Assembly: GCA_035772405.1 (NCBI GenBank)
Contig: JAYKKM010000001.1
Location: 62,001 to 126,000, forward strand
Source: Chrysogorgia sp. JL179-B06
Lineage: Eukaryota > Cnidaria > Anthozoa > Scleralcyonacea > Chrysogorgiidae
Reading direction: 5' to 3'
Length of the DNA: 64,000 nucleotides
Under the pieces are notes generated by a model. It saw only the letters and a program-made list of their open reading frames with translations, was not told the origin of the DNA and did no database searches. This document shows positions 9,682 to 64,000 of the stretch, piece after piece. Position 1 is the stretch's first letter; every line of letters starts with the position of its first letter. A program made the translations under genes and the position numbers.

Positions 9682-9769
9682 GGATCTTTTCTAGTTCAGG
9701 TAGTAGCGTTTCATGAACTGCCATCGCAGCTGCGATGTGCATTGCCGTTGAAAATGTATCATTGGAACT
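9682..9769 (-). CDS. Candidate exon, single copy, Ala-rich helix
   Basis: After CTAAATTCTAG and before GTATGT. Reads [18 protein letters not shown] then [11 protein letters not shown]. Found once in the window, in an insert specific to the 8.9-kb unit. Predicted helical; family unknown. Confidence 0.45.
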
Positions 9770-9835
9770 CTAGAATTTAGCAACAAAAATACTGAGATAA
9801 GGTCATTATTTGTGACCCTCCATGGGAAAACATAC

Positions 9836-17094: not shown

Positions 17095-18519
17095 TATCAT
17101 ATTTAGGTTTCTAGGTATTTTAAGATCCTCTAGAGTAAGTTGTGTTTGAAAAGTGTCTTAACGCCATTTTGTTTTGGATACATATTTTCACTGGAGCTAG
17201 ATACAGGAATTAATGTCAAAATCATCCGATCACCGCGGTAGGTCCACTGATCTCAAACATAGGACTGGATTGAGCTTTCTATTGTATCTGAGCTGATTTT
17301 GAAGCTTGCATATTTGCATAATGTCAATTGACGAGAGATCATTAGAAGCTCCGAGTTTCCAAGCAAATCAAACTGACGCTCGCGAAATAGGTTTAGTGTT
17401 TGGCCAATATAGTTTCTTTGTTAACATTAAATGCATAAAATCTTGAACCAAATTTGACGTCTCATATTAGTCTTCTCTCACTTGATAATTAGAGCCAACG
17501 GCGGCCATTGCTAAGAGACCAAAGTCGCAGTAAATCTGTGGTAGGCCATGAATCGTTTTACCCAGTAATTTGAAAAATGTCTTCTGGTCCTCTTTGTAGT
17601 CAAAAACAACTTCTTGGGATCCTCAGTTGGTCCCTTAGTAATGGCGGACTTGCGGCTTCATTTTCTGAACAATAGTTGCTCGATCCAGTCTTCTTTCGAG
17701 ATCAGTTGGGTTAAACACGCGTATGATTTTAGGATTGATGACTATTCGTTCTATTTCCTGTTAAGTATATAAAAAAATAAATATAATATGAAATATTCAA
17801 TACCACGAGTGTGTAACAGGTGTGATATTCTGAATATTTCGCCAAATACAAGTGCACTAATCATTAATTTTTCAGTGTTATAACATTTCAATTAATTTTA
17901 CTACTTCCTGGTAAACGAATAATACCAAAATTTGTTAGGTTGGAAATCATTTTATGACAATACTTCATCATGAAAGCAGAAAAACTGTCGTTACAGCGGT
18001 CTTGGATGTGTGGTATTTAGGAAAAATGACCACGTGTGCTATTTTTCCTAAATACCCCAAGAACATTTAAGTGAGATTTTGATGTCGTTAATTATCAGGA
18101 TTAGTGAATTTGATTGAAACGTTGTTCATAAAATAATTGCACTGTTCTTGACCAATCCAACTACAGTAATAGTTTGTTATGTACATAACTAGAAGTTACT
18201 ATCGCAAAACAGATTTTAAATTAGTAGTTTGTATTTTTAATTCCTTTTATTGCTTTTCATCGAGTATTTCTAAACATATTTGCTATAAGAAAATGATCGT
18301 ATACTTTCCGTTTTTGTATTAGTTTTAATAAATGTCGAGTTCTATGTTTTACATTCGTCGACTTGTCATTTTTTTGCTGCGAGCGCTACAACATCGTTAC
18401 GACCAAATGGAAAACCACACCTGCACAGATGCTGTACAATGGCATACTTGTAGCCAACGGCAAACTGCTAAGTAAATCTGTGTTATATCTATTATTGTAC
18501 GTAATTCTTATCTAAGGAA

Positions 18520-18790
18520 TGCTTTTCATGTTGTAAAACGGCGAAAGGCCTTTCACTATGCCATGGTTGGAGCCTTAAAGGCTACTAGGTTCAATTCCTA
18601 GTACATACTGTCACTTTGCCAACTATTATTTTTCACTGTATGATGTTTTACTATAGTTATTGTATGTAATTGTTATTCTTATCTAAGGAATGCTTTTCAT
18701 GTGTTGTAATTTCACTATGCCATGGTTGGAGCCTTAAAGGCTACTTATAGGTTCAATTCCTAGTACATACTGTCACTTTGCCAACTATTA
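18520..18790 (+). repeat. Two tRNA-like T-arm units
   Basis: CTAGG-TTCAATT-CCTAG (18585-18601) forms a perfect 5-bp T-stem with a 7-base loop and a B-box core; GCCATGGTTGGAGCC upstream is weakly A-box-like. The unit is repeated near 18715-18775, and occurs singly in copy B (50690) and copy C (62500). No complete tRNA fold. Confidence 0.45.
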
Positions 18791-18846
18791 TTTTGCATTG
18801 TATGTTGTTTTACTATAGTTATTGTATGTAATTGTTATTGTTATCT

Positions 18847-19460
18847 AAGGTGTTTGTCTCAGAGAGGTGTTTGTCTTAGAAGTGTGTCTGTCTTATAGAG
18901 AGGGTATCTCTCTTAGATTGGTGTCTGTCTTAGAGAGGTATCTGTCTTATTGAGGTGTCTGTCTTAGAGAGGTGTCTGTCTTAGAGAGGTGTCTGTCTTA
19001 GAGAGATATCTGTCTGTCTGATAGAGGTGTCTGTCTTAGAGCTGTCTTAGTGAAGTGTCCGTCTTACAGAGGTAATCTATCTTAGATTGGTGTCTATCTT
19101 AGAGAGGTGTCTGTCTATCTTAGAGAGGTGTCTGTCTTAGAGGTATCTCTCCTGCATTGGTGTCTGTCTTAGAGAGATGTCTGTCTTAGAGGTGTCTGTC
19201 TTAGAGAGATGTCTGTCTTAGAGGTGTCTGTCTTAGAGAAGAGGTGTCTATCTTAGAGAGGTGTCTGTCTTAGTGAAGTGTCTCTCTTAGAGAGGTATCT
19301 CTCTTAGATTGGTGTCTGTCTTAGAGGTATCTCTCCTGCATTGGTGTCTGTCTTAGAGAGATGTCTGTCTTAGAGGTGTCTGTCTTAGATAGATGTCTGT
19401 CTTAGAGGTGTCTGTCTTAGAGAGGTGTCTGTCTTAGAGAGAGGTGTCTGTCTTAGTATA
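18847..19460. repeat. 17-bp minisatellite, copy A
   Basis: GTGTCTGTCTTAGAGAG with many variants. About 610 bp here, about 385 bp in copy B (50787-51172), about 710 bp in copy C (62603-63310). Confidence 0.95.
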
Positions 19461-20590
19461 AGAATAGAGAGAGTATAGGAATGTCATCTCTAAAGTTTAA
19501 AAGCTGAAGTTTAATTGGGCGAAAATCGGCACGAACTTGGCCGAATAATTTTTAAGTACATAAGCTACACGTTAAAGTACATAAGTACATAAGCTACACA
19601 TAAGCTACGCGTTCTCGTAATATAATAGGTACGTGTGTGATGTATTTAGACGCGGTAATTCCAAATCTGTTTTCAGAATTGAAAACGGTTAAATATTGAT
19701 CGAGATAACGTTCAAAGTATACGACGAAGCGGCCGGGAGGCTGATTACCGTCTAATTTCTAAGTATATAAACCGTTTTTATCGTAGGAACTATTTTTCAC
19801 TTGGGTCAAAGTTATAATTTGTGACGAACCCCTTCTAGTGGTGTCCGGGGGTATTTTCCCCTGTGAAATTTTGCATTTCTGAGACCTCTGGAAGGTTCCT
19901 GCATTTTGGTGAGCAGAAGTTAAGAACATTTAAAGGCCGAAACAGGGAGTGTTTAGTGAACAAACACGGCTGCAAGACTATTTGTTTCTTAAAATTAAAA
20001 TTGAAATACACTTACAAATACCCTGGGTACGAGGTTGGATAATAGGTACGTGTGTTCAGGGCCCCAAGCAAACAAAATCTGAGCCAATGGATTATTCCGC
20101 TGACTGTCCCAAATTTCTGGACACGCGACTACAAAAGCCCTCACTCTTGAACCGGGCCCTGAACCCTAGCTACGCGACTGCGTGTGTTATGTATTTAGAC
20201 TCGGTAATCAGAATTGAAATCGAGCAAATATTGGCCAAGATAACGTTCAAAATAACGTTTAAAATGTTGACTTGGGTTGGTACCTGGCCGAAGTAGTAAG
20301 CTGGTAGAACGTTCAAAATCTTATCGACAGACTACAAATACGCGGTGTGGGCACTGGGGACCACGGATGGGGAAAAGAAACTGTAGGGCTGGGGTGGGGT
20401 GGTAGAAAAGGCGAGCGAGCTAGGGTTTATTACGGATTCGTATTTCTAGTTTAAAAACACTTTAAAAAGAAGGTATTCCCTATGGGGTTACATTGTGGCC
20501 TGTTTCAAACGTTTCCCTGTACCAAACACGGAATGTGTAATTAGTGTAAATTTGATTTAGTTTTGGCATACGAAAGTGACTCGACGCAAT
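19461..20590. other. Non-coding duplicated segment
   Basis: No supported gene. It contains the empty site (about 19988-20010) for the retrotransposon found at 51768-52864. The open frame at 19949-20296 is not conserved as protein in copies B or C. Confidence 0.6.
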
Positions 20591-20653
20591 CAACCTCGTT
20601 CCCAGGACCTTATCTCCGCTTCCCGCTGGAGCGAGGCCCTGGGAACGAGGTTG
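20591..20653. repeat. Inverted repeat with AACGAGGTTG ends
   Basis: CAACCTCGTTCCCAGG ... CCTGGGAACGAGGTTG. Same in copy B at 53463-53525; related, larger one at 24310-24440. Confidence 0.75.
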
Positions 20654-21269
20654 CGACGCAATGCTTGCTTGTTCCCACAGAAGTTCATAACTCCAGGATA
20701 TAGAAGAAGCAAGCCGCTAAACGAATACATACATGAATATGAATAGTAAACCAACAGGGTGTATTGAAATGAATTAGGCCCGGGTCAAACGTCGAACTTT
20801 TCCTGAGTTGAACTCAATGTAAATTAGGAAACTCTTGTTTAAATTCATTTGCATTGAGTTCGACTCATGAAATGTTCGACGTTTGACCTTGGCCTAAGAC
20901 TAGTATGCGACATTCCTAAATACGTCATACAAGAAACAAATTCATTTAGGAATTAACAACTGGTAGAACCATCGTCGATATCATTTATGCTATAACATGG
21001 ATGAAGTGTAAACTATTATGACCCATATCTACTCAGTTTAAAGTTGCAAAATATGGCTAGAGAGACGTACTCGACAGCACAGTTATTTACTTATCTCTAG
21101 CGATATAAGACCAATACGAAAACAAAGCATGAGTTTTGATCTGCGACGTATACGAAGACAAAACAACGAGAATTTTTCTTTGTTTCCTCTTTTGTTTTGC
21201 TCTTGCCTTATATGCTTCTTATGCTTGGCTTAATATTTTTCTTACGATTATGATTATGTACATCTTTAT

Positions 21270-22130
21270 GTCGCAGGTTTGACTTCATTCCTTTGGTTTG
21301 CCTTTTGTCTTGTCCTTATGACGATCCTTATGTCTCAGGGTTGACTTCATTCCTTTGTTTTGCCTTTTGTTTTGTCCTTATGACGATCCTTATGTCTCAG
21401 GGTTGACTTCATTCCTTTGGTTTGCCTTTTGTTTTGTCCTTATGACGATCCTTATGTCTCAGGGTTGACTTCATTCCTTTGGTTTGCATTTTGTTTTGTC
21501 CTTATGACGATCCTTATGTCTCAGGTTTGACTTCATTCCTTTGGTTTGCCTTTTGTTTTGTCCTTATGACGATCCTTATGTCTCAGGCTTGACTTCATTC
21601 CTTTGGTTTGCCTTTTATTTTGTCCTTATGACGATCCTTATGTCTCAGGCTTGACTTCATTCCTTCGGTTTGCCTTTTGTTTTGTCCTTATGACGATCCT
21701 TATGTCTCAGGTTTGACTTCATTCCTTTGGTTTGCCTTTTGTCTTGTCCTTATGACGATCCTTATGTCTCAGGCTTGACTTCATTCCTTTGGTTTGCCTT
21801 TTGTTTTGTCCTTATGACGATCCTTATGTCTCAGGTTTGACTTCATTCCTTTGGTTTGCCTTTTGTCTTGTCCTTATGACGATCCTTATGTCTCAGGCTT
21901 GACTTGATTCCTTTGGTTTGCCTTTTGTTTTGTCCTTATGACGATCCTTATGTCTCAGGCTTGACTTCATTCCTTTGGTTTGCCTTTTGTTTTGTCCTTA
22001 TGACGATCCTTATGTCTCAGGTTTGACTTCATTCCTTTGGTTTGCCTTTTGTCTTGTCCTTATGACGATCCTTATGTCTCAGGCTTGACTTGATTCCTTT
22101 GGTTCGCCTTTTGTTTTGTCCTTATGCTTA
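21270..22130. repeat. 62-bp minisatellite, expanded in copy A
   Basis: Unit contains TTATGACGATCCTTATGTCTC and TTGACTTCATTCCTTTGG. The marker TTATGACGATCC occurs 13 times here but once in copy B (54140-54270). An inverted fragment of the flank lies in the fumarase intron (58036-58200). Confidence 0.95.
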
Positions 22131-23283
22131 TGATATGCTCACGTGTGCAGAACCAGGCGCCGAACTAAGTGAAATAATAAATTAAAATGTTTATGACAAC
22201 TACCACTGGGACTATAGTCTATACTCTTATAATTACATATGTCAAACGTTTTAATTAGATAAAATTTATTTCTATTATGTAAATTATTATGAAGCTATAT
22301 ATAAGTGCACACTTTGATTAGACAGTTGTCATTTTTACTGCTGAAATAAAGGAAAGAAGTAGCCTATCTCGATGTACGTTGTCTCATATACCTTTGTATC
22401 TTTTCTTAAAATTTGGTAAGCCAACTTGGAATCCCCTATCTTGTGTCCTTCAACTGGAAATTGTTGTTAGTCGGTAAGAAACTCCTTAATATTCTTTACA
22501 ACTCTTTGGTTGACCATGCGTCGCTTTAGTTATCGAGCAATTTCAACGTCAATTTATTTTGTTAAAAAGTTTAATTTAGAACTCTTGAAAGATAATACCA
22601 CTATAGTTCGTCGGTCAATCTACGTCGCTGTCAACAAGGAAATTAAAGCTCTCTAGTACAAGAAAAAAACAACACCTCAATGAGAACTAAATAACCAACG
22701 AGTTCTTATGGAAGCGGCTTAATCAGTTTTGAAAAAGGCGTATTCAAAAATATTTTACGATCGCGTCCATGTGTCGTCTATCTACTCGAAGCTCTCTGCA
22801 CATTCAGTACTACACATAGAACGAGTCATTTTAACTGGCGACTGGCTAAATAACCTACACATATTTTATTAATAAATGACCAGTAAAGAAGTTGTTTGTC
22901 TCTCTGCTACGCAGGCTAGGTGGAGAGATGGACAGTTGCTTTGCTTTAATTTCATTTCTCATTATGAGTCAGCTTGAAAAGCAAGTGCAGGAATGCAAAT
23001 GAATTTTAATCTTTCTTTGTTTGTTGCATTTTTTAGACCAGTGGAGTTCACCGGCATTCACCGAGAATCGAGATAATTCCACTGGAATATCGAGATGGTT
23101 CAAAGTATTATTCGAGAGAATCGAGATATAATTCAAAAGTCAAACTGGAAATTGTCGTTGGTCGCGGTAAGTCACGCCTTAATATTCGAATTCTTTGGTC
23201 CACCATGCATCACTTTAGTGAGCGGGCTAGTGTTCTTATTTTTCACATGGCTCGGGTTTCTTTGTTCTTTTCGGGGAATATAT
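22131..23283. other. Non-coding end of copy A
   Basis: No gene supported; closely matches 54280-55424. Homology stops at GGGAATATATT. Confidence 0.6.
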
Positions 23284-23749
23284 TCAATAGCCCCTGTACA
23301 TTAACTGTCTAAAAAGCTGGTGGCGGTTTTTGATTGTAACAGAGGAGTGCGGTGCTGAAAACAATGACAAAACAATATATTAATATTCCCCTTTAATATT
23401 CTCGCTATAGTTTTTCCTCTAATATTCCCTTCTAATATATAGTATTATATAAATCTCTTCGTCCGACTCACTCATGTCTTCCACGTGTAACTGTCTTTAC
23501 GAAGTTCTAGCATATTGAACAGAACGAACACAACGATTTACATTTGAATTTAACTCTTGAGAATCCTACTGGGCGATGAAATAATTTCATTGCGTTGCCA
23601 ACGCATAATTATAAATCATCTACTAAAAAAGGAATTTCTTTTTGACCTCGCCCATGTGAACTATTATTGGATTCCCCACTATTACAAAATATTTAAGTCG
23701 AGCTGAATTCAATATTGGGCGAGACATATATCAAACAAAATATCTTAAA
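23284..23749. other. Spacer between copies A and B
   Basis: Nothing recognised. Confidence 0.5.
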
Positions 23750-24222
23750 GGGTGAGTGTCAACCGTGACGCATTGCACGCTCGGTCGGCCATTTTTTGAA
23801 GCACGAAATTCCTTTGGTGAACTGCATCTGTAAATATCTTTGATATGCCAATCCTTGATATAAATTATTCATTTTGTCTTTTAATTGAAAGAAGATATAC
23901 CTTAGAAAGTAATTATTTCTGCATTTTTCACAAAACTCGACGTTTTCTTGACTTTCGTTTCGAATTATGTCAGCCTTGACTGACTCGAAGCGTGCAAGAC
24001 CAAGTGACGAGGTTCAAACAAAAAAAATCAGGTTCCAAGTCGATGTATTTGGATTGTGGATGAATAAGAAAGCTTCTGTAGGGTTTTCTGAAAAGACTCG
24101 GCGAATTTCCGAAGTATTTATGCCACATCAAGTTGGCAACAAAGCACTTCAAAACACTTTGTAATCGTACGGAAAGATAAACACAAACGCGCAATGCATG
24201 ACGGTTGACACTCTCTCTTTAA
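23750..24222 (+). mobile_element. Short inverted-repeat element with ORF, copy 2
   Basis: Left GAGTGTCAACCGTGACGCATTGC and right GCAATGCATGACGGTTGACACTC form terminal inverted repeats. It holds the best reading frame of the three copies (23967-24164, 65 codons, MSALTDSKRARPSDEVQ ... VFGLWMNKKASVGFSEKTR). The function of this short basic protein is unknown; it may be the N-terminal exon of a transposon protein. Confidence 0.55.
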
Positions 24223-24309
24223 CATAAAGATGTTTCTTCGCACGTAAACAATCAAAAGGTTGCTCGTCATTAACTCATAAAGACATCACGTTCCGCGAGA
24301 AAGTACTTC

Positions 24310-24440
24310 AACCAATGAAATTTCGATTTAGTTAAAAGGCACGCGAGTTACGCGGCGGGGAGCGGAGATAAGACCCTGGGTACGAGGTTGCGTAACTCGC
24401 CAACCTCGTACCGAGGGTCTTATTTCCGCTCCCCGTTGCT
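24310..24440. repeat. Inverted repeat, GGGGAGCGGAGATAAGACC arms
   Basis: Arms around 24356-24392 and 24400-24436, nearly complementary, with AACGAGG/ACGAGGTTG cores like 20591-20653. Confidence 0.75.
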
Positions 24441-24649
24441 TTGCACGTGAACAGCACGTGTGACCAGTCCATAGGTTGCTGCCCTACATCGTAAAATATT
24501 GGGCTGCCACGTGATGCTAATAGACAGTTGATTGTGGATTATATGTGAGGGTATAATGAAAGTACGTTATTTTGAGGCAACGCCCTCTGTGAATAAATCT
24601 CATTCCCTCGTGGCCTTAAAATAACCTATTAATTATATCATAGAAACTA

Positions 24650-24786
24650 CAGGGTGTATAAAAAAAAGCGCAACCTCGGAATTTCCCAAGAAATCCACTG
24701 TGTTCTTAACACAAAAGATTTTCGCCCCTGGGAATTTAAAATAGCTTGTAATCGTATTCCAGGGGCATAATTGTCTAATTACTACA
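24650..24786. mobile_element. Half of a TA-flanked MITE
   Basis: CAGGGTGTATAAAAAAAAGC onward is the reverse complement of the right half of the element at 26745-27065. The other terminus is missing. Confidence 0.75.
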
Positions 24787-24941
24787 ATATACCCAGATAC
24801 ATCTTCACCATAAATCCTTACAACATGACGTAGTTTAATCGAGTGAAATGCCAAATATTACCTGTATATATACCCAGAATCTTATCCTGCATGGCATTAC
24901 CACCATATATACATAACGTGTGACTAGGCTCTCGGCAACGG

Positions 24942-25015
24942 CTTCCGTAGCTCATTGGTCAGAGTACTGCACTAGCATCGCAAGGTCGCGTGTTTAATTC
25001 CAGCCGGAACGCCTT
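24942..25015 (+). repeat. tRNA-Ala-like pseudogene or SINE head
   Basis: GTAGCTCATTGGTCAGAG matches an A box/D arm. CTAGCAT could be an anticodon loop with AGC, and GTTTAATTCC is a weak B box. GCTTCCG and CGGAACGC partly pair as acceptor stem. Anticodon and T stems are poorly paired, so it is not a working tRNA gene. Confidence 0.45.
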
Positions 25016-25386
25016 GAGAATGTATATTTTCATCATTTTAATAAAAGAGTCTTATTACTTATTTTCTTAAAACATCTTTCCATGTTCCCATACGTTATAG
25101 AAACACTCGTAAAAGTTTGGGAGGACTCGAAATAGAGTGGAAACACACTCGCCCAGTGGGCTCGTCTTCCCACTGCCATTTCTCATTCTCCCAAACTACC
25201 ACTCGTATCTCTATAACTCTATGGAAACATGGAAAATGTTTCCTGGCGACCACACCTCAGTAGCATAGCACATCTGAGATTTAACGAGTGCTAGGTATAA
25301 ACATATATATATGTATATATGTATATATATGTATATTATTACTCTTTCCCGGAATTTGGACCCTGACGTTTTAATTTTCATTGCAG

Positions 25387-25730
25387 GAGCTTCGACAGGA
25401 GAATTATACGTTAAAAATGAAAATTGACACCAATATTTACGAAAGGGAAAACTTGATAAAAGATTTCTAGCAGTCGAATAAATGCAAACGTAAAGAATTG
25501 GAGAATGAATGTATTCGTCTTGCTGCCAACAACGAAAAACAAGTTCGAGATCTAAGATACGAACTACATTCATCAGAAATGGAACTTGAGAAGGCTACTT
25601 TGGTCAATGATGAACAAAAAGAGAAAATCGCAAAAAAAGACGAAATGTTAGCTCAAGCCAACAGTTACTCAGAGAAACTGCAAGATATGTATCAGATGGA
25701 AAGACAGTTAGAAGAACTGCAACAATTACA
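25387..25730 (+). pseudogene. Coiled-coil exon with in-frame TAG, plus copy
   Basis: Between TTTTCATTGCAG and GTGAGT. ELRQENYTLKMKIDTNIYE, then TAG after IKDF, then CKRKELENECIRLAANNEKQ through EELQQLQ, a long heptad pattern. The TAG is also in the inverted copy, so it predates the duplication, unless TTTCTAG at that point acts as an internal acceptor. Downstream frame intact here, unlike 43656-43997. Confidence 0.55.
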
Positions 25731-25828
25731 GTGAGTTTTTAAGCATACAAAATCACAAAACGAAGCGACACGTGAGAGACACACCGGATGAGAAAGAACA
25801 CCTAACATTTACTAATAAAAATTTGAAG

Positions 25829-25895
25829 AAATCTCAAGGATTATTTGGAAGAAGAAAAAATACTGAAGGGGAGACCTCGTTAAGAGATAATACAG
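25829..25895 (+). pseudogene. Relative of the NEKEQL exon, plus strand
   Basis: Upstream EKEHLTF and then NLKDYLEEEKILKG match EKEQLIF and YLEDNFMEEK of 7525-7646, but in different frames; ends at GTATGA. Probably broken. Confidence 0.35.
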
Positions 25896-26130
25896 GTATG
25901 ACATTAAAATAGACCTGAAGTAAAAATTGTATTATGTTTTAAATAAGCATAATCGTCAATTCACGATTATGCCCTACATATTCCACCTGAAAGCTGCATT
26001 CCTGTGTGACCTACTGTATGATTGCCTGGGAAATAGAAAGTGTGGTTGTACTCTTAATTGATTTACTTTAATGCCATCAATATGTATGTAATGAAAGGAA
26101 TTCTCTCTTGTCAAGAACTATGATTAGATT

Positions 26131-26744
26131 GTTATCTAAGATTCATCCCGGGAACATTTTCTCGATGTTTGAAATTTCCCGGCCAATTAAAGCTTTGCAG
26201 ATCGTCTGTTATATCGAAACTAGTTTTCTAGAATATTTTCAACACTTTTCAGTGTAATACTTGCGTTGATAATTTCATTGTAGAGCATCTGATTCAATTC
26301 CATCTGAATCAATTTTACTTTATTCCAAAATCCTAATTGGCTAATGATTGCCAAGGTATTTAGGGAAAAACCTCCGGCCGGTGTTATTGCTGCCCGATCC
26401 CCTTAGGGAGGCAGCACACTATTCTTGGCGTCCTTGTGTTTATCTCGTGCCCAGTCGATTGGCAGAGCTACTGTATAGCTGCTGTTAATCTCGATCTGCG
26501 TGAAAAAGTGGATGTTTGTTAGCAGTTACCATTCCCGGCTGCGCTGAATGTATAATGCATTGTTTTATTTACCTATGACATTTAGACATTCCTGACTTGG
26601 ACTTCTAGTAAACAATATATTTAGTATGGTGACATCCCGCATGATTTCCGTATGTTATGATCGTCTTGATACGTGTTTATATTGTTATCGAGTGGAACAC
26701 GGCAACAAACGACAGCGTCTTAATTGAAGGAGACACTGACTATA
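26131..26744. other. Spacer, no gene seen
   Basis: Unrecognised sequence. CCGTATGTTA...GATACGTGTTTATATTG resembles the stretch near 27420-27480, suggesting a local duplication around the MITE. Confidence 0.4.
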
Positions 26745-27065
26745 CAGGGTGTATAAAAAAAAGCGCAACCTCGGAATTTCCCAAGAAATCCACTTTGTTT
26801 TTATTAGCATGCACAAAAGATTTTAGGCCTCTGGGAATTAACTGTTGTTGATACTTGTAAACTAAACAACTTTTCATTAAATAAATGCATAAATTTCGAT
26901 TCAATTCTGCTTTACGTGCTCGAGTTTGTAGTAATTAGACAGTTATGCCCCTGGAATACGATTACAAGCTATTTTAAATTCCCAGGGGCGAAAATCTTTT
27001 GTGTTTAAGAACACAGTGGATTTCTTGGGAAATTCCGAGGTTGCGCTTTTTTTTTATACACCCTG
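26745..27065. mobile_element. TA-flanked MITE, complete
   Basis: 321 bp, inverted ends CAGGGTGTATAAAAAAAAGC / GCTTTTTTTTTATACACCCTG, flanked by TA. No coding sequence. Mariner-like ends. Confidence 0.85.
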
Positions 27066-27703
27066 TATAAACCTCAATGTTTTCGACAATGGTGACATCC
27101 CACATTCCCGTTCGTTAGTTCGATTTGAAATAAGACTGCTCGATCGCGAGATAAGTCGGCAAATATTACAAATAACGTGAAGTTCGATTTGGCAAAAGTG
27201 TCGCTTGAATGGAAAATTTATAACTTCGCGAGGCTTGCTCGTTTCCAGTAAATGTTGTTCGTTATTAGATGTATGGCGTTCAAATATGAATATTATGAAT
27301 ATTATAAATTGAATAGACTTTAAGCGGTTGTTAAATTTGACTCGCAAATTATGCAAATGAGCTATTTTCTTTTGTTATGGCCACAATAATTACGGGTAAC
27401 CGAAACTCGCCATATGATTACCGTATGTTATTTTAGTATTACAAGGCTACATGATCGCCTTTATACGTGGTTTATATTCTACATTCTATTTATTTGATCC
27501 TTCATGCTCTAGAAAATTTGTAGCATTGCTTGACATGCCTAATCCTGAACACTTCTACAGGCAACCTCGTATCCACTGCTCCTGTGTCTGTCCCAAGGAC
27601 TGGTTTTTAAGACAGGTTATTGTAGTCTTGAATCATCGTGATCATCTTTTCGGTCCATCTTCTTTTAATTTCAAGTCCAACCGGTATTTTTCCTTTTTTC
27701 CTG
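27066..27703. other. Spacer before copy B
   Basis: No exon I can support, although it may be intronic to a plus-strand gene running from 25.4 to 28.5 kb. Confidence 0.4.
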
Positions 27704-27784
27704 CAATGCAAACTTCACACTGCGATTAATCGGGCCAATTTCACAAACTAAACCATATTCGCTTCTTTTTCATTTTTTTGTTAG

Positions 27785-28468
27785 ATTACGGACATTGGAC
27801 AGGAATGTAATGATGAAGAGATAAATGTTATCTGCCTGAGGCGGATAACATTGAAAGATCTCTCGATAATTCTTGATATCATGTGTAAGCCAAATCCAAT
27901 TGTTTTATTATACATATAAATGTAGATTATTACGTCACCTACAGACAATTTTTGATATTTTGTAGATGGCAAGACATCGAGAATTGTTTGTAGGTTTTTT
28001 AGCCAATCCCAATCGAGATTGTATGAGTATTGTAATAATATCAAATATTTCTAATTTTCTTTTTAGAAAAGTGTCGTGATGGTGAGAAAGGCGCTTGAGA
28101 AATTCCCAACTGTTCCGAGACGCGTGTACGTAACTGCCCGCTTTTCTTTCTCTAATTTCTTTGTCCCTATTTTTATTTTTATATCCCTTTCACTCATTTT
28201 ATTTTTTACATGTTATTGGCTCATTTTTAGTTCTAAGTAGATTAGCTATTCCATGTCTCTAATTATTACTTTTTTTATCCCTGCAGTGTTCCATGCTGAT
28301 AACTCAAGTCTAAACCAAATATTTCTGAAACTGCTCTGTGATGCTATTGAGGAACACTCTTATAATGAGAACCTCCATGATCTACTGTCTAAAGAGGAAA
28401 CCCAGAAACTGGAAGTGAAGATGAGAGAAATGGGACACCACGTACCAGCAATGATAAAGTCAAAGTAG
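27785..28468 (+). pseudogene. 3' end of unrecognised gene, copy B (three exons)
   Basis: Exon from 27785 (after TTTTTTGTTAG) has small deletions that shift the YGHWT frame. Exon 28067-28129 is open (VVMVRKALEKFPTVPRRVY). The terminal exon 28287-28468, after TTTATCCCTGCAG, is intact: SSLNQIFLKLLCDAIEEH, NENLHDLLSKEETQKLEVKM, HVPAMIKSK, stop. The protein looks helical. The plus-strand coiled-coil exon at 25387 may belong to the same gene. Family unknown. Confidence 0.5.
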
Positions 28469-50710: not shown

Positions 50711-50786
50711 TCACTTTGCCAACTATTATTTTTCACTGTATGATGTTTTACTATAGTTATTGTATGTAATTGTTATTGTTATCTAA

Positions 50787-51172
50787 GGTGTTTGTCTCAG
50801 AGAGGTGTTTGTCTTAGAAGTGTGTCTGTCTTATAGAGAGGGTATCTCTCTTAGATTGGTGTCTGTCTTAGAGAGGTATCTGTCTTATTGAGGTGTCTGT
50901 CTTAGAGAGGTGTCTGTCTTAGAGAGATATCTGTCTGTCTGATAGAGGTGTCTGTCTTAGAGCTGTCTTAGTGAAGTGTCTGTCTTAGAGAGGTAATCTA
51001 TCTTAGATTGGTGTCTGTCTTAGAGAGGTCTCTGTCTTTGAGAGGTGTCTGTCTTAGAGGTGTGTATGTCTTAGATGTGTGTCTGTCGTGGAGAGGTGTC
51101 TGTCTTAGAGAGAGGTGTCTGTCTTAGAGAGGTGTCTGTCTTAGAGAGAGGTGTCTGTCTTAGTATAAGAAT
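50787..51172. repeat. 17-bp minisatellite, copy B
   Basis: As 18847-19460. A short reverse-orientation run of the same unit is at 51470-51535. Confidence 0.95.
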
Positions 51173-57475: not shown

Positions 57476-58035
57476 ACTGGATTGAACACAAAGATTGGTT
57501 TTGCAGAAAAAATGGCTGCAACAACCTGGATGATCTACTTCACACCTCTAAATGGGTACCTTGCAAATGGTAACGAAGTTAGCTGCAGAGCTAACATTTT
57601 TACCATTTTCAAGGTACCAAGATGTGGTCTTGGAGAGTTATCTTTACCAGAAAATGAACCAGGAAGCAGTATTATGCCAGGTTTGTATTTTTAGTTTATA
57701 AACTACACCTCATTTTAACCCTTTATACTGTGCCCCTGAAGGGGTGGTCACCGAACGAATGTCGAGTGATTTGGCCATCGTGAGACTGAGTAGAAAAGCC
57801 GTTGAGAGACCAACACTTTCTATCCGTCAGTAGAGTGCTACGTAGACAGTGTTTTGGAAATATAGCAAAGTGAAAAGGTGGTGAACTACTGAGATTTTTA
57901 GTAACGAAATACTGAAGTTTCAAGCGGAGCCCTTCATCGGGGTAAGACTCGTTTTATACTCTGATATCAGAGAAGGATATATAACTCGTCTTACACTAAT
58001 ATAACTCGTGTTATATGCCTGGATTACACGAGAGC

Positions 58036-58200
58036 ATAATCATTAATCATAAGACAAAACAAAGGAATGAAGTCAAGCCTGCGACATAAAGATGGACATA
58101 ATCATAAGAAGCATAAGCCAAGCATACGAAGCATAAGGCAAGAGCAATACAAAAGAGGAAACAAAGAAAAATTCTCGTTGTTTTGTCTTCGTATGTCTCA
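58036..58200 (-). repeat. Inverted fragment of duplication sequence in fumarase intron
   Basis: Reverse complement of 21120-21330 (start of the 62-bp array and its left flank). Confidence 0.75.
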
Positions 58201-58289
58201 GAGGAAACGTTATCGCTCGTGTGAACCAGGCCGTTGATACAGATATCTTCATCGACGAAGGGATCCGCTCCAAGCGATCTATTAACTAT

Positions 58290-58735
58290 TTCTATTGAGC
58301 GATCAACGGTTGATATTGAGCGACCATTAACAGTTTGAGCGACCAACAGTTTGAGCGATGAACAGTTTGAGCGAAACAGTTTGAGCGATCAACGGTTTGA
58401 GCGATCAACGGTTTGAGCGATCAACGGTTTGAGCGATCAACGGTTTGAGCGATCAACAGTTTGAACGGTCAACAGTCAACAGTTTGAGCGATCAACGGTT
58501 TGAGCGATCAACGGTTTGAGCGATCAACGGTTTGAGCGATCAACGGTTTGAGCGATCAACAGTTTGAACGGTCAACAGTTTGAGCGATCAACAGTTTGAG
58601 CGATCAACAGTTTGTATTGAGCGATCAACAGTTTGAGCGATCAACGGTTTGTATTGAGAGATCAACGGTTTGTATTGAGAGATCAACGGTTTGTATTGAG
58701 AGATCAACAGTTTGGATTGAGCGATCAACGGCTAT
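58290..58735. repeat. 16-bp minisatellite in fumarase intron
   Basis: TTTGAGCGATCAACGG with variants, about 25 units, later units extended by TATTGAG. Confidence 0.9.
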
Positions 58736-59083
58736 TTCGGCAGTACGCCAACTTTTAGAGTATTTGATTTGTATTTCTACACTGCCTACACAACAAGACA
58801 CTTTTCTATCACTTTGTTGATTAACTTTATGTTTATAATATCTAGTAAAGGTAAAGTCAATTCAACACAATGTGAGGCTATCACAATGATTGCAGTTAAA
58901 GTGATGAGCAACCAGATGGGCAACCAAGTTGCTGTCAATGTTGGTGGAAATAATTGTCATTTTGAATTAAACGTATTCGAACCACTCGTGATTCTTAATG
59001 TATTACAATCAACGCCAACTGTGTTGACGGAATTGTTGCAAACCGCAAAAAATGAGTCCTTAATGCTTGTCACATCATTGAAT

Positions 59084-59155
59084 CCCTATATTGGTTATGA
59101 CAAGGCAGCTAAGATTGTTTGCAATCTCAGCTGCCTTTTCATAACCAATATAGGG
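59084..59155. repeat. 34-bp inverted duplication inside fumarase exon
   Basis: Arms 59084-59117 and 59122-59155 pair with two mismatches around a TTTG loop. The left arm codes [11 protein letters not shown]; the right arm is its inverted copy. Confidence 0.9.
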
Positions 59156-59160
59156 TTGCA

Positions 59161-60699
59161 CATCAAGAAGGAACTACATTAAAAGCACATCAAGAAGGAA
59201 CTACATTAAAAGCACATCAAGAAGGAACTACATTACAAGCACATCAAGAAGGAACTACATTACAAGCACATCAAGAAGGAACTACATTAAAAGCACATCA
59301 AGAAGGAACTACATTAAAAGCACATCAAGAAGGAACTACATTAAAAGCACATCAAGAAGGAACTACATTACAAGCACATCAAGAAGGAACTACATTACAA
59401 GCACATCAAGAAGGAACTAGATTAAAAGCACATCAAGAAGGAACTACATTAAAAGTACATCAAGAAGGAACTACATTACAAGCACATCAAGAAGGAACTA
59501 CATTACAAGTACATCAAGAAGGAACTACATTAAAAGCACATCAAGAAGGAACTACATTAAAAGCACATCAAGAAGGAACTACATTAAAAGCACATCAAGA
59601 AGGAACTACATTACAAGCACATCAAGAAGGAACTACATTACAAGCACATCAAGAAGGAACTACATTACAAGCACATCAAGAAGGAACTACATTAAAAGCA
59701 CATCAAGAAGGAACTACATTAAAAGTACATCAAGAAGGAACTACATTACAAGCACATCAAGAAGGAACTACATTAAAAGCACATCAAGAAGGAACTACAT
59801 TAAAAGCACATCAAGAAGGAACTACATTAAAAGCACATCAAGAAGGAACTACATTACAAGCACATCAAGAAGGAACTACATTACAAGCACATCAAGAAGG
59901 AACTACATTACAAGCACATCAAGAAGGAACTACATTACAAGCACATCAAGAAGGAACTACATTAAAAGCACATCAAGAAGGAACTACATTACAAGCACAT
60001 CAAGAAGGAACTACATTACAAGCACATCAAGAAGGAACTACATTAAAAGCACATCAAGAAGGAACTACATTAAAAGCACATCAAGAAGGAACTACATTAC
60101 AAGCACATCAAGAAGGAACTACATTACAAGCACATCAAGAAGGAACTACATTAAAAGCACATCAAGAAGGAACTACATTACAAGCACATCAAGAAGGAAC
60201 TACATTACAAGCACATCAAGAAGGAACTACATTAAAAGCACATCAAGAAGGAACTACATTACAAGCACATCAAGAAGGAACTACATTACAAGCACATCAA
60301 GAAGGAACTACATTAAAAGCACATCAAGAAGGAACTACATTACAAGCACATCAAGAAGGAACTACATTAAAAGCACATCAAGAAGGAACTACATTAAAAG
60401 CACATCAAGAAGGAACTACATTACAAGCACATCAAGAAGGAACTACATTAAAAGCACATCAAGAAGGAACTACATTAAAAGCACATCAAGAAGGAACTAC
60501 ATTACAAGCACATCAAGAAGGAACTACATTACAAGCACATCAAGAAGGAACTACATTACAAGCACATCAAGAAGGAACTACATTAAAAGCACATCAAGAA
60601 GGAACTACATTAAAAGCACATCAAGAAGGAACTACATTAAAAGCACATCAAGAAGGAACTACATTAAAAGCACATCAAGAAGGAACTACATTAAAACAA
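59161..60699 (+). repeat. 27-bp coding minisatellite, 57 units
   Basis: CATCAAGAAGGAACTACATT + A(A/C)AA + GCA. Exactly 57 units of 27 bp with no indel. Variants: TTAAAA/TTACAA (Lys/Gln), GCA/GTA (Ala/Val, units 11, 13 and 21) and one ACA to AGA (Arg, unit 10). Confidence 0.95.
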
Positions 60700-60836
60700 G
60701 CTGCTATTGCCTTGGAATATCTCACTGCAGAGGAATTTGATTCATATGTAAAACCGGAGGAAATGCTGGGACCAAAGTAGGGGGACTGGAGATTAATTTA
60801 ACTGACCAATAGGCTCACGTTTATTTGGTAACTTTT

Positions 60837-60901
60837 TATATATGCCATGGAGAGGCTATGTTAAATTGTTTATTTAACATAGCCTCTCCATGGCATATAT
60901 A
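60837..60901. repeat. Perfect 30-bp palindrome, 5-base loop
   Basis: Arms 60837-60866 and 60872-60901 (TATATATGCCATGGAGAGGC...). 57 bases after the fumarase stop. Confidence 0.9.
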
Positions 60902-60931
60902 TGATTTGGGATTTGTCGATTTGTCGGATTT

Positions 60932-61326
60932 GTCGTGGTATAACAAACTTAAATATAGCTTTAAGCCTAGAAAGTTCTGAAACTACTTATATATTATAAA
61001 CGCATTTATCAAAAATCTATATTATAAAATATTATAAAAGTCGGTGTGCTATCGAAATAGTGTATTGGAGGTGTAAGGTTTTGAGTGAATGCCCAATTAC
61101 TACTCTCTGGCGAAGGGCCTTCACTCGAAGTGTTTGATCTCCTCCACACCGGCTTTCGGCACTACACCAACCTTTTACAGTTCTTTATTTGTATTTCTAC
61201 ACTACCTACGCTTAATAAGTGATAGAACAACGATAGATTTGTCGTGGTACAACAAACTTAAATATAGCTTTAAGCCTAGAAAGTTCTGAAACTATTATAT
61301 ATTATAAACACATTTATCAAAAATCT
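60932..61326 (+). repeat. Direct repeat pair flanking a SINE-like insert
   Basis: 60932-61019 and 61241-61326 match (AACTTAAATATAGCTTTAAGC...). The 61030-61215 sequence between them is an inverted-repeat relative of the element at 1190-1440. No gene up to 61820. Confidence 0.7.
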
Positions 61327-61983: not shown

Positions 61984-64000
61984 GAACATTGAAGTGAGAT
62001 TTTGATGTCGTTAATTATCAGGAATAAGTGAATTTGATTGAAAAGTTATTCATAAAATAATTGCACTGTTCTTGACCAATCCAACTACAGTAATAGTTTG
62101 TTATGTACATAACTAGAAGTTACTATCGCAAAAGAGATTTTAAATTAGTAGTTTGTATTATTTTTAATTCCTTTTATTGCTTTTCATCGAGTATTTCTAA
62201 ACATATTTGCTATAAGAAAATGATCGTATACTTTCCGTTTTTGTATTAGTTTTAATAAATGTCGAGTTCTATGTTTTACATTCGTCGACTTGTCATTTTT
62301 TTGCTGCGAGCGCTACAACATCGTTACGACCAAATGGAAAAACCAGATGCTGTACAATGTTATACTTGTAGCCAAAGGCAAACTGCTAAGTAAATCTGTG
62401 TAATATCTATTATTGTACGTAATTCTTATCTAAGGAATGCTTTTCATGTTGTAAAACGGCGAAAGGCCTTTCACTATGCCATGGTTGGAGCCTTGAAGGC
62501 TACTAGGTTCAATTCCTAGTACATACTGTCACTTTGCCAACTATTATTTTTCACTGTATGTTGTTTTACTATAGTTATTGTATGTAATTGTTATTGTTAT
62601 CTAAGGTGTTTGTCTCAGAGAGGTGTTTGTCTTAGAAGTGTGTCTGTCTTATAGAGAGGGTATCTCAGATTGGTGTCTGTCTTAGAGAGGTATCTGTCTT
62701 ATTGAGGTGTCTGTCTTAGACAGATATCTGTCTGTCTGATAGAGGTGTCTGTCTTAGAGAGGTCTCTGTCTTAGAGCTGTCTTAGTGAAGTGTCTGTCTT
62801 AGAGAGGTAATCTATCTTAGATTGGTGTCTGTCTTAGAGAGGTGTCTGTCTTAGAGAGGTGTCTGTCTTAGAGAGGTGTCTGTCTTAGAGAGGTGTCTGT
62901 CTTAGAGAGGTGTCTGTCTGTCTTAGAGAGGTATCCGTCTTAGAGGTATCTCTCCTGCATTGGTGTCTGTCTTAGAGAGATGTCTGTCTTAGAGGTGTCT
63001 GTCTTAGAGAAGAGGTGTCTGTCTTAGAGAGGTGTCTGTCTTAGAGGTGTGTCTGTCTTAGTGAAGTGTCTCTCTTAGAGAGGTATCTCTCTTAGATTGG
63101 TGTCTCTCTTAGATTGGTGTCTGTCTTTGAGAGGTGTCTGTCTTAGATGTGTGTCTGTCTTAGATGTGTGTCTGTCTTAGAGAGAGGTGTCTGTCTTAGA
63201 GAGGTGTCTGTCTTAGAGAGAGGTGTCTGTCTTAGAGAGAGGTGTCTGTCTTAGAGAGAGGTGTCTGTCTCAGAGAGGTGTCTGTCTTAGAGAGGTGTCT
63301 GTCTTAGTATAAGAATAGAGAAAGTATAAGAATGTCATCTCTAAAGTTTAAAGGCTGAAGTTTAATTGGGCGAAAATCGGCACGAACTTGGCCGAATAAT
63401 TTTTAAGTACATAAGCTACACGTTAAAGTACATAAATACATAAGCTACACATAAGCTAGATGTATTTAGACGCGGTAATTCCAAATCTGTTTTCAGAATT
63501 GAAAACGGTTAAATATTGATCGAGATAACGTTCAAAGTATACGACGAAGCGGCCGGGAGGCTGATTACCGTCTAATTTCTAAGACAGACACCTCTCTAAG
63601 TATATAAACCGTTTTTATCGTAGGAACTATTTTTCACTTGGGGGGCAAAGTTATAACTTGTGACGAACCCCTTTTAGTGGTGTCCGGGGTTATTATCCCC
63701 TGGGAAATTTTGCATTTCCGAGACCTTTGGAAGGTTCCTGCATTTTGGTGAGCAGAAGTTAAGAAAATTTAAAGGCCGAAACAGGGAGTGTTTAGTGAAC
63801 AAACACGGCTGCAAGACTATTTGTTTCTTAAAATTAAAATTAAAATTGAAATACACTTACAAATACCCTGGGTACGAGGTTGGATAATAGGTACGTGTGT
63901 TCAGGGCCCCAAGCAAACAAAATCTGAGCCAACGGATAATTCCGCTGACTGTCCCAAATTTATTTTTATTTATTTTATTTATTTATTAACTTTACAACCA
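61984..64000 (+). repeat. Segmental duplication, partial copy C
   Basis: Starts at AAGAACATTGAAGTGAGATTTTGATG, matching 18058 and 50157, and continues to the window end. It has the tRNA-like unit (62440-62530) and the uninterrupted retrotransposon target site at about 63820-63860. Confidence 0.9.
62603..63310. repeat. 17-bp minisatellite, copy C
   Basis: Longest of the three arrays. Confidence 0.95.

Follow-up and report, generated by a model that had tools for sequence, protein, structure and literature searches.

In this study, we describe a 27-bp minisatellite that was very probably born inside a family of class II fumarase (FH) pseudogenes, where slippage between short flanking repeats would have founded an array that now stands at two loci. 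The genome contains one FH gene whose exons 2-8 are uninterrupted, on C233, and three loci that carry its last exon, on C1, C24 and C288; by genome search, two arrays are present, on C1 and C24. The window, i.e. the whole stretch of 64,000 nucleotides that was analysed, corresponds to C1:62001-126000, and the assembly searched comprises 781 Mb in 522 contigs. Features of the FH copy in the window are collected in Table 1.

Table 1. Positions in the window of the rearranged FH copy, its minisatellite and the two palindromes
Feature	Position	Strand	Remarks
FH exon 6/intron 6 remnants	57476..57618	+	three pieces: forward, inverted, forward
FH exon 7, 3' part	57619..57680	+	joined directly to the exon 6 remnant; tblastn match
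FH intron 7 copy	57681..58850	+	contains shortened 16/21-bp minisatellite, 58329-58729, ~400 bp
FH exon 8, front part	58851..59119	+	deletion and frame disruption
Palindrome	59079..59160		exon 8 arm 59079-59117, inverted copy 59122-59160, 4 nt apart
Minisatellite	59158..60696	+	57 units of 27 bp, GCACATCAAGAAGGAACTACATTAAAA, read as HQEGTTLKA in the frame of FH
FH exon 8 end with stop codon	60697..60780	+	83/84 bases as in the parent
FH 3' flank	60781..60863	+	60667-60863 at 94.0% over 199 columns
Second palindrome	60837..60901		30-nt perfect arms; first arm is FH 3' flank

TRF reported the tandem array in the window (59158-60696) with a period of 27, 57.0 copies, 97% matches, 0% indels and a score of 2861, and cutting it into 27-mers gave exactly 57 units, which fall into five types: 28 end in TTAAAA and 25 in TTACAA, two have GTA and TTACAA, one has AGA and one has GTA and TTAAAA. 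These values bear out the original prediction of a 57-copy, 27-bp array without indels, and the coordinates given for it (59161..60699) did locate the array, with an offset of 3 bases. Head-to-tail units within the range of ~10-100 bp, many copies and variant units identify it as a minisatellite. Comparison with the parent locus showed that the most frequent unit at C1 is identical to last-exon DNA of class II fumarase in the same genome, in agreement with the source first proposed for it. In the genome search, the counts of which are lower bounds, all matches of at least 98% to the unit lay on C1 or C24.

Other repeats and weaker matches were met during these searches. Unit matches of 69-74% on C10 and at 470 kb on C288 were rejected, as they are located in arrays of an 18-bp unit; these arrays are large, kilobases long and of the GCTTGACCTGCTTGATGT type (C10:518500-528499 and C288:465500-475400), and the 18-bp unit of C10 occurs in both orientations, on either side of ~1 kb. 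A Pfam match of the minisatellite to DUF2345 (87.6 bits, cut-off 30.7) was also set aside, with 0 stretches passing alone, and was read as summed weak repeat matches. Within the window, three arrays (18848-19456, 50786-51163 and 62604-63307) have one 17-bp unit in common, AGGTGTCTGTCTTAGAG, and by eye a stretch of ~90-100 bp (GATTTGTCGTGGTA...) was found twice, at 60920-61020 and 61234-61325, with a palindromic element between.

The parent gene was located by tblastn with E. coli FumC together with splice-site inspection at C233:375433-389540, on the minus strand. Its exons 2-8, which constitute the gene model (exon 1 was not located), join without a stop into 463 residues; each of them is preceded by AG, and exons 2-7 are followed by GT. 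The closest named protein relatives are those of the octocorals Dendronephthya gigantea (88%) and Xenia sp. (85%), and the best match overall reached 91%, which points to the genome of a probable octocoral. Class II fumarate hydratase is the source of the unit, the tail and the flanks of the array, but the C233 gene has one HQEGTTLK unit (n=1), which answers the search for an intact parental gene and the count of its units suggested by the original prediction. Intron 7 of this gene, ~9.4 kb long (18736-28142 in parent positions, FHrc, counted on the reversed C233 stretch), contains, over much of its length, a 16-bp minisatellite of the AACAGTTTGAGCGATC type. In the whole assembly the fumarase C-terminal domain was found with E <=0.001 at five places, namely C233 (full domain), C288, C1 twice and C24, this genome-wide tally of FH copies being based on searches with the C-terminal part.

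The C1 locus is a truncated, intron-bearing and rearranged partial duplicate of the 3' part of FH. Its exon 6/intron 6 remnants consist of a forward exon 6 piece (57476-57522, 95.7% to FHrc 17870-17916, +), an inverted exon 6/intron 6 piece (57516-57584, 87.0% to FHrc 17993-17925, -) and a forward exon 6 end (57584-57618, 94.3% to FHrc 17920-17954, +); the inverted piece is partly a repeat, because 57516-57552 within it also matches three further places of the parental locus. The junction of exon 6 and exon 7 has a 3-base overlap, ACC (57616-57618), and 57616-58213, intron 7 included, aligns with parent 18671-19293 at 90.9% identity over 626 columns. On the 3' side of the array, the 36 residues that begin with the last unit and run to the end of the frame are matched with E 1.9e-10 by PDB entries named fumarate hydratase, mitochondrial, and Pfam FumaraseC_C scores above its cut-off; on the 5' side, FH exon 8 was recognized with E 1.9e-24, in a frame other than that of the array. 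Both flanks are hence related to fumarate hydratases, as anticipated, and the normal fumarase sequence that had been claimed for both sides is found on the 3' side, but not on the 5' side, where exon 8 has a deletion, a different frame and an inverted piece before the array. The 3' flank beyond the stop codon (60781-60863), taken alone, agrees with the parent in 66/83 positions of a gapless global alignment.

FH exons 1-4 were not seen by tblastn in C1:42001-136000, where FH is represented by the rearranged pieces of exons 6-8 and by a separate exon 5 piece. The latter, at 9682-9811 of the window (-), comprises the end of intron 4 and the start of exon 5; it matches the parent at 89%, and its intron-derived portion, which comes first, contains a stop. 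An intron retained, homology beyond the exons and a frame disabled relative to the parent characterize the C1 copy as a duplicated pseudogene. Because it retains intron 7, the copy came by DNA duplication and not by reverse transcription, and a processed pseudogene was rejected.

In a class II fumarase one frame spans the conserved exons as far as the C-terminal domain, and C1 has no such frame. The upstream FH frame (ORF 58769-59182) ends with HIKKELH and a stop inside the first unit, out of frame with the array, by which a working fumarase at C1 was rejected; judged by its reading frames, the locus cannot encode the FH enzyme. The fumarase with an internal array that the original prediction had described is therefore replaced by a rearranged partial duplicate, with an FH frame that stops in unit 1 and no ATG that opens the array frame. 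The predicted 553-codon open frame does exist, as a mechanical frame of 553 aa at 59119-60780 that starts from a TTG located inside the inverted FH fragment. From stop to stop the array frame covers 59113-60780 (555 codons), and its sole ATG, at 60763, lies six codons (18 bases) before the stop, i.e. near the frame's end and not where a start codon in frame with the array would open a repetitive protein gene. In the remaining frames of the array, stops number 30 and 1 (forward) and 57 in each of the three reverse frames.

Among the 116 units of both arrays, seven distinct variants occur, all of them missense and 0 silent. A single change of the unit can be missense in 57 ways, silent in 18 and a stop in 6, and under random single changes the probability of 0 silent variants out of seven is 0.15 and that of no stop in seven is 0.58. 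The seven variants give no sign of selection on the array protein, and the open frame needs none, since the array is young and its unit length of 27 is divisible by 3. No array-like protein was present in the best 120 of 572 hits, 119 of which match 6-7% of the query and one, a fumarase, 19%, and nothing in the sequence suggests translation of the array.

The original prediction did not include the pair of palindromes, the rearranged remnants of exons 6 and 7, the C24 array or the C288 single-unit pseudogene. The arms of the palindrome at 59079-59160 are 39 nt long and 90% complementary, and as single-stranded DNA it is predicted to fold at -32.2 kcal/mol (z -10.4 vs shuffles). Between forward exon 8 and a forward unit, as expected of template switching, lies an inverted piece of ~41 bp (59115-59155) that corresponds to FHrc 28455-28415 inverted, at 90.2%, and adjoins the array. 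Both arms, and C288, have TTAT where the parent has TTAC, a state that fits a local source of the inverted copy. The second palindrome (60837-60901), with -32.3 kcal/mol as single-stranded DNA (z -14.7 vs shuffles), stands where FH homology ends on the 3' side. These inverted FH pieces and the 3-base junction at C1 have the appearance of template-switch products that arose in replication or repair.

Inverted copies left by template switching have been described in great apes (PMC7954356) and in RNA genes (PMC8794818). There, a few bases give way to an adjacent stretch copied in inverted orientation, which results in a near-perfect hairpin, as at 59079-59160 and 60837-60901, whereas here several events fall within one 3.4-kb duplicate and a minisatellite adjoins one of them; the work cited is apparently not concerned with minisatellites. 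Foldback insertions at yeast DNA breaks (PMC11724301) are similar in their short inverted duplications and in microhomology at junctions, but are mostly of 5-34 bp and come from an assay, whereas those described here are of ~41 and 30 bp and were found in a genome.

On C24 the contig begins with at least 59 units (1593 = 59 x 27), the array being open to the contig end with the break exactly at a unit edge. The array is followed by an FH tail of 78 bases, 2 of them mismatched, and then by sequence unlike the 3' flank of C1. Comparison of C24:2400-20000 with C1:42001-136000 yielded one matching stretch only, of 55 bp; because the surroundings match in just this stretch, C24 is a second locus, and the possibility that C24 and C1 are alleles of one locus was rejected. 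The two arrays have the unit, the phase and the K/Q and A/V variants in common and differ in rare variants, and their unit order was not clearly alike, the longest common run of 10 units being reached in 32/500 shuffles. Since the 5' side of C24 lies off the contig, it is the unit, the phase and the K/Q and A/V variants that argue for a common ancestor of the two arrays. Directly at the end of the FH tail of C24 there is a stretch of 837 bp (1669-2505) with 11-bp inverted ends, CCAGTGTGACC, which were found by eye and not reported by self-comparison. It is possibly a DNA transposon, and no target-site duplication was found around it (8-bp flanks TGCTGGGA and TTGTTCAT).

The C288 copy has one unit in a degenerate exon 8. 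A long 21-bp version of the intron 7 minisatellite lies beside this exon 8 copy, and the 16/21-bp intron minisatellite is common to three FH copies, C233, C1 and C288. In the three-way alignment of exon 8 (parent, C1 and C288), the ungapped columns comprise 247 that are alike, 6 in which C1 and C288 share a difference from the parent, and 16 and 18 with differences restricted to C1 and C288, respectively; 200 further columns are gapped. Two of the six shared differences are protein-changing (V/I and S/N by translation), and since three octocoral FH proteins carry the parent's residue at both sites, the pseudogene state is derived. C1 and C288 would so descend from one earlier duplicate, or share one in part.

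The ends of exon 8 have few mismatches to the parent (1/84 in C1, 0/46 in C288 and 2/78 in C24), compared with 18/255 in the front of C1 and 34/282 in that of C288, the latter count being alignment-dependent (24 differences in the three-way alignment vs 34 in another). Pooled over copies, with a boundary between end and front picked after seeing the data, these are 3/208 vs 52/537 (p 3e-5; C1 alone p 0.053, C288 alone p 0.007). Such unusual closeness to the parent beside the arrays is not what plain neutral decay predicts, and conversion from the parent is perhaps one reason why pseudogene tails are nearer to it than fronts.

The parental unit runs from GAAAGCAC to TTAAAACA, and slippage between their AAA stretches gives exactly 27 bp. 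These 27 bp would have been duplicated in a common ancestor of the C1 and C24 copies, by slipped replication or by unequal exchange involving the AAA in GAAAGCAC and that in TTAAAACA; later slippage, unequal exchange and conversion may have raised the array to 57 units at C1 and at least 59 at C24, with TTAAAA and TTACAA, the main variants, putatively mixed in the process. At C1 the inverted piece has taken the place of the bases that precede the first unit (in the parent, CAAAGAAA), and each TTAAAA unit at C1 is followed by G(C/T)ACATC. Because the TTAAAA-GCACATC junctions need AAA before GCA, which was removed at C1, the founding duplication most likely predates the fold-back, so that the palindrome would bound the array without having founded it. 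According to a review (PMC6947457), minisatellites are founded by slippage or unequal exchange at repeats of 5-10 bp flanking the unit. The array agrees with that description in the short direct repeats that flank the unit in its single-copy ancestor and in whole-unit expansion with variant units interspersed. It differs in its source, a coding exon in a duplicate and not a transposable element, and in founding repeats that are merely AAA (imperfectly 5/7 bases), below the 5-10 bp of the review, which counts against an origin by slippage.

Slippage within a pseudogene is nevertheless the reading we prefer, and the alternatives bear in part on other steps. Transposable elements might have done the copying, if FH fragments travelled with the repeat-filled intron 7 element or were taken up next to an element. 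This could be suggested by the 16/21-bp minisatellite contained in C233, C1 and C288 and by the 837-bp stretch at the end of the C24 FH tail, which has CCAGTGTGACC on one side and the reverse complement of CCAGTGTGACC on the other; however, the duplicated stretches end differently at each locus, C24 has no target-site duplication and its 11-bp ends were seen by eye only, which makes such a carrier unlikely, and a carrier does not account for the founding of the array. An assembly artefact, in which mis-joined or collapsed reads produced the length of the array or the second array on C24, appears quite unlikely: the beginning of C24 inside the array at a unit edge is a place where assemblies tend to break, and tandem repeats lead to assembly errors according to the title of PMC6868369, but the C1 array stands between distinct flanks within a contig of 296 kb, and the two arrays differ in rare variants and 3' flanks. 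The copy number may be off, whereas the array itself most likely exists.

It is very improbable that the array is a nascent repetitive protein gene, in which it would be an exon joined by splicing to a start further upstream and would have grown as antifreeze glycoprotein genes did. The 57 and 59 units without stop or frameshift, the FH stop codon that closes the C1 frame, and the AG in the region of the frame within the inverted arm (CTCAG, ATAG), which offers candidate splice acceptors, would all suit such a gene, but no ATG opens the array frame, none of the seven variants is silent, the best 120 of 572 hits include no such protein, and a young 27-bp array remains open without selection. 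Still less probable is the fuller version of this idea, an embryonic repeat-protein gene of >500 residues grown from a 9-residue enzyme segment, with a splice acceptor made by the fold-back, already copied to a second locus and caught before or soon after gaining expression. The remaining alternative is an allele of a working fumarase in which the last exon has expanded. The FH sequence that flanks the array and the intact tail and stop codon are what it would have, yet the exon 8 deletion and the inverted piece lead to a stop in unit 1, exons 1-4 are missing from the tblastn matches in C1:42001-136000 and uninterrupted FH exons 2-8 exist on C233, leaving it a negligible chance.

The notothenioid antifreeze glycoprotein genes originated from a small piece of a trypsinogen-like gene. 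Their protein has grown out of a small part of an enzyme gene (PMC10256766), and the array resembles that case in the amplification in frame of such a part beside gene remnants; in contrast, a secretory start and expression are known there, whereas no start codon opens the array described here. A literature search that missed most subscription journals found no fumarase-derived minisatellite and no publication on soft-coral minisatellites, and in the literature on coding minisatellites and pseudogenes, seen in part, no title dealt with a fumarase-derived array.

The class of event is ordinary, and its record is unusually complete. The birth of a minisatellite is recorded with unusual clarity by the single-copy ancestor on C233, the single-unit pseudogene on C288 and the expanded arrays on C1 and C24, and since all stages are found in one genome, the founding repeats, the order of events and the spread between loci are directly readable. 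The locus is also a caution that enzyme codons in a long open frame may reflect nothing more than a repeat with a unit length, 27, that is divisible by 3. Were the array expressed, it would bear on the origin of repetitive proteins.
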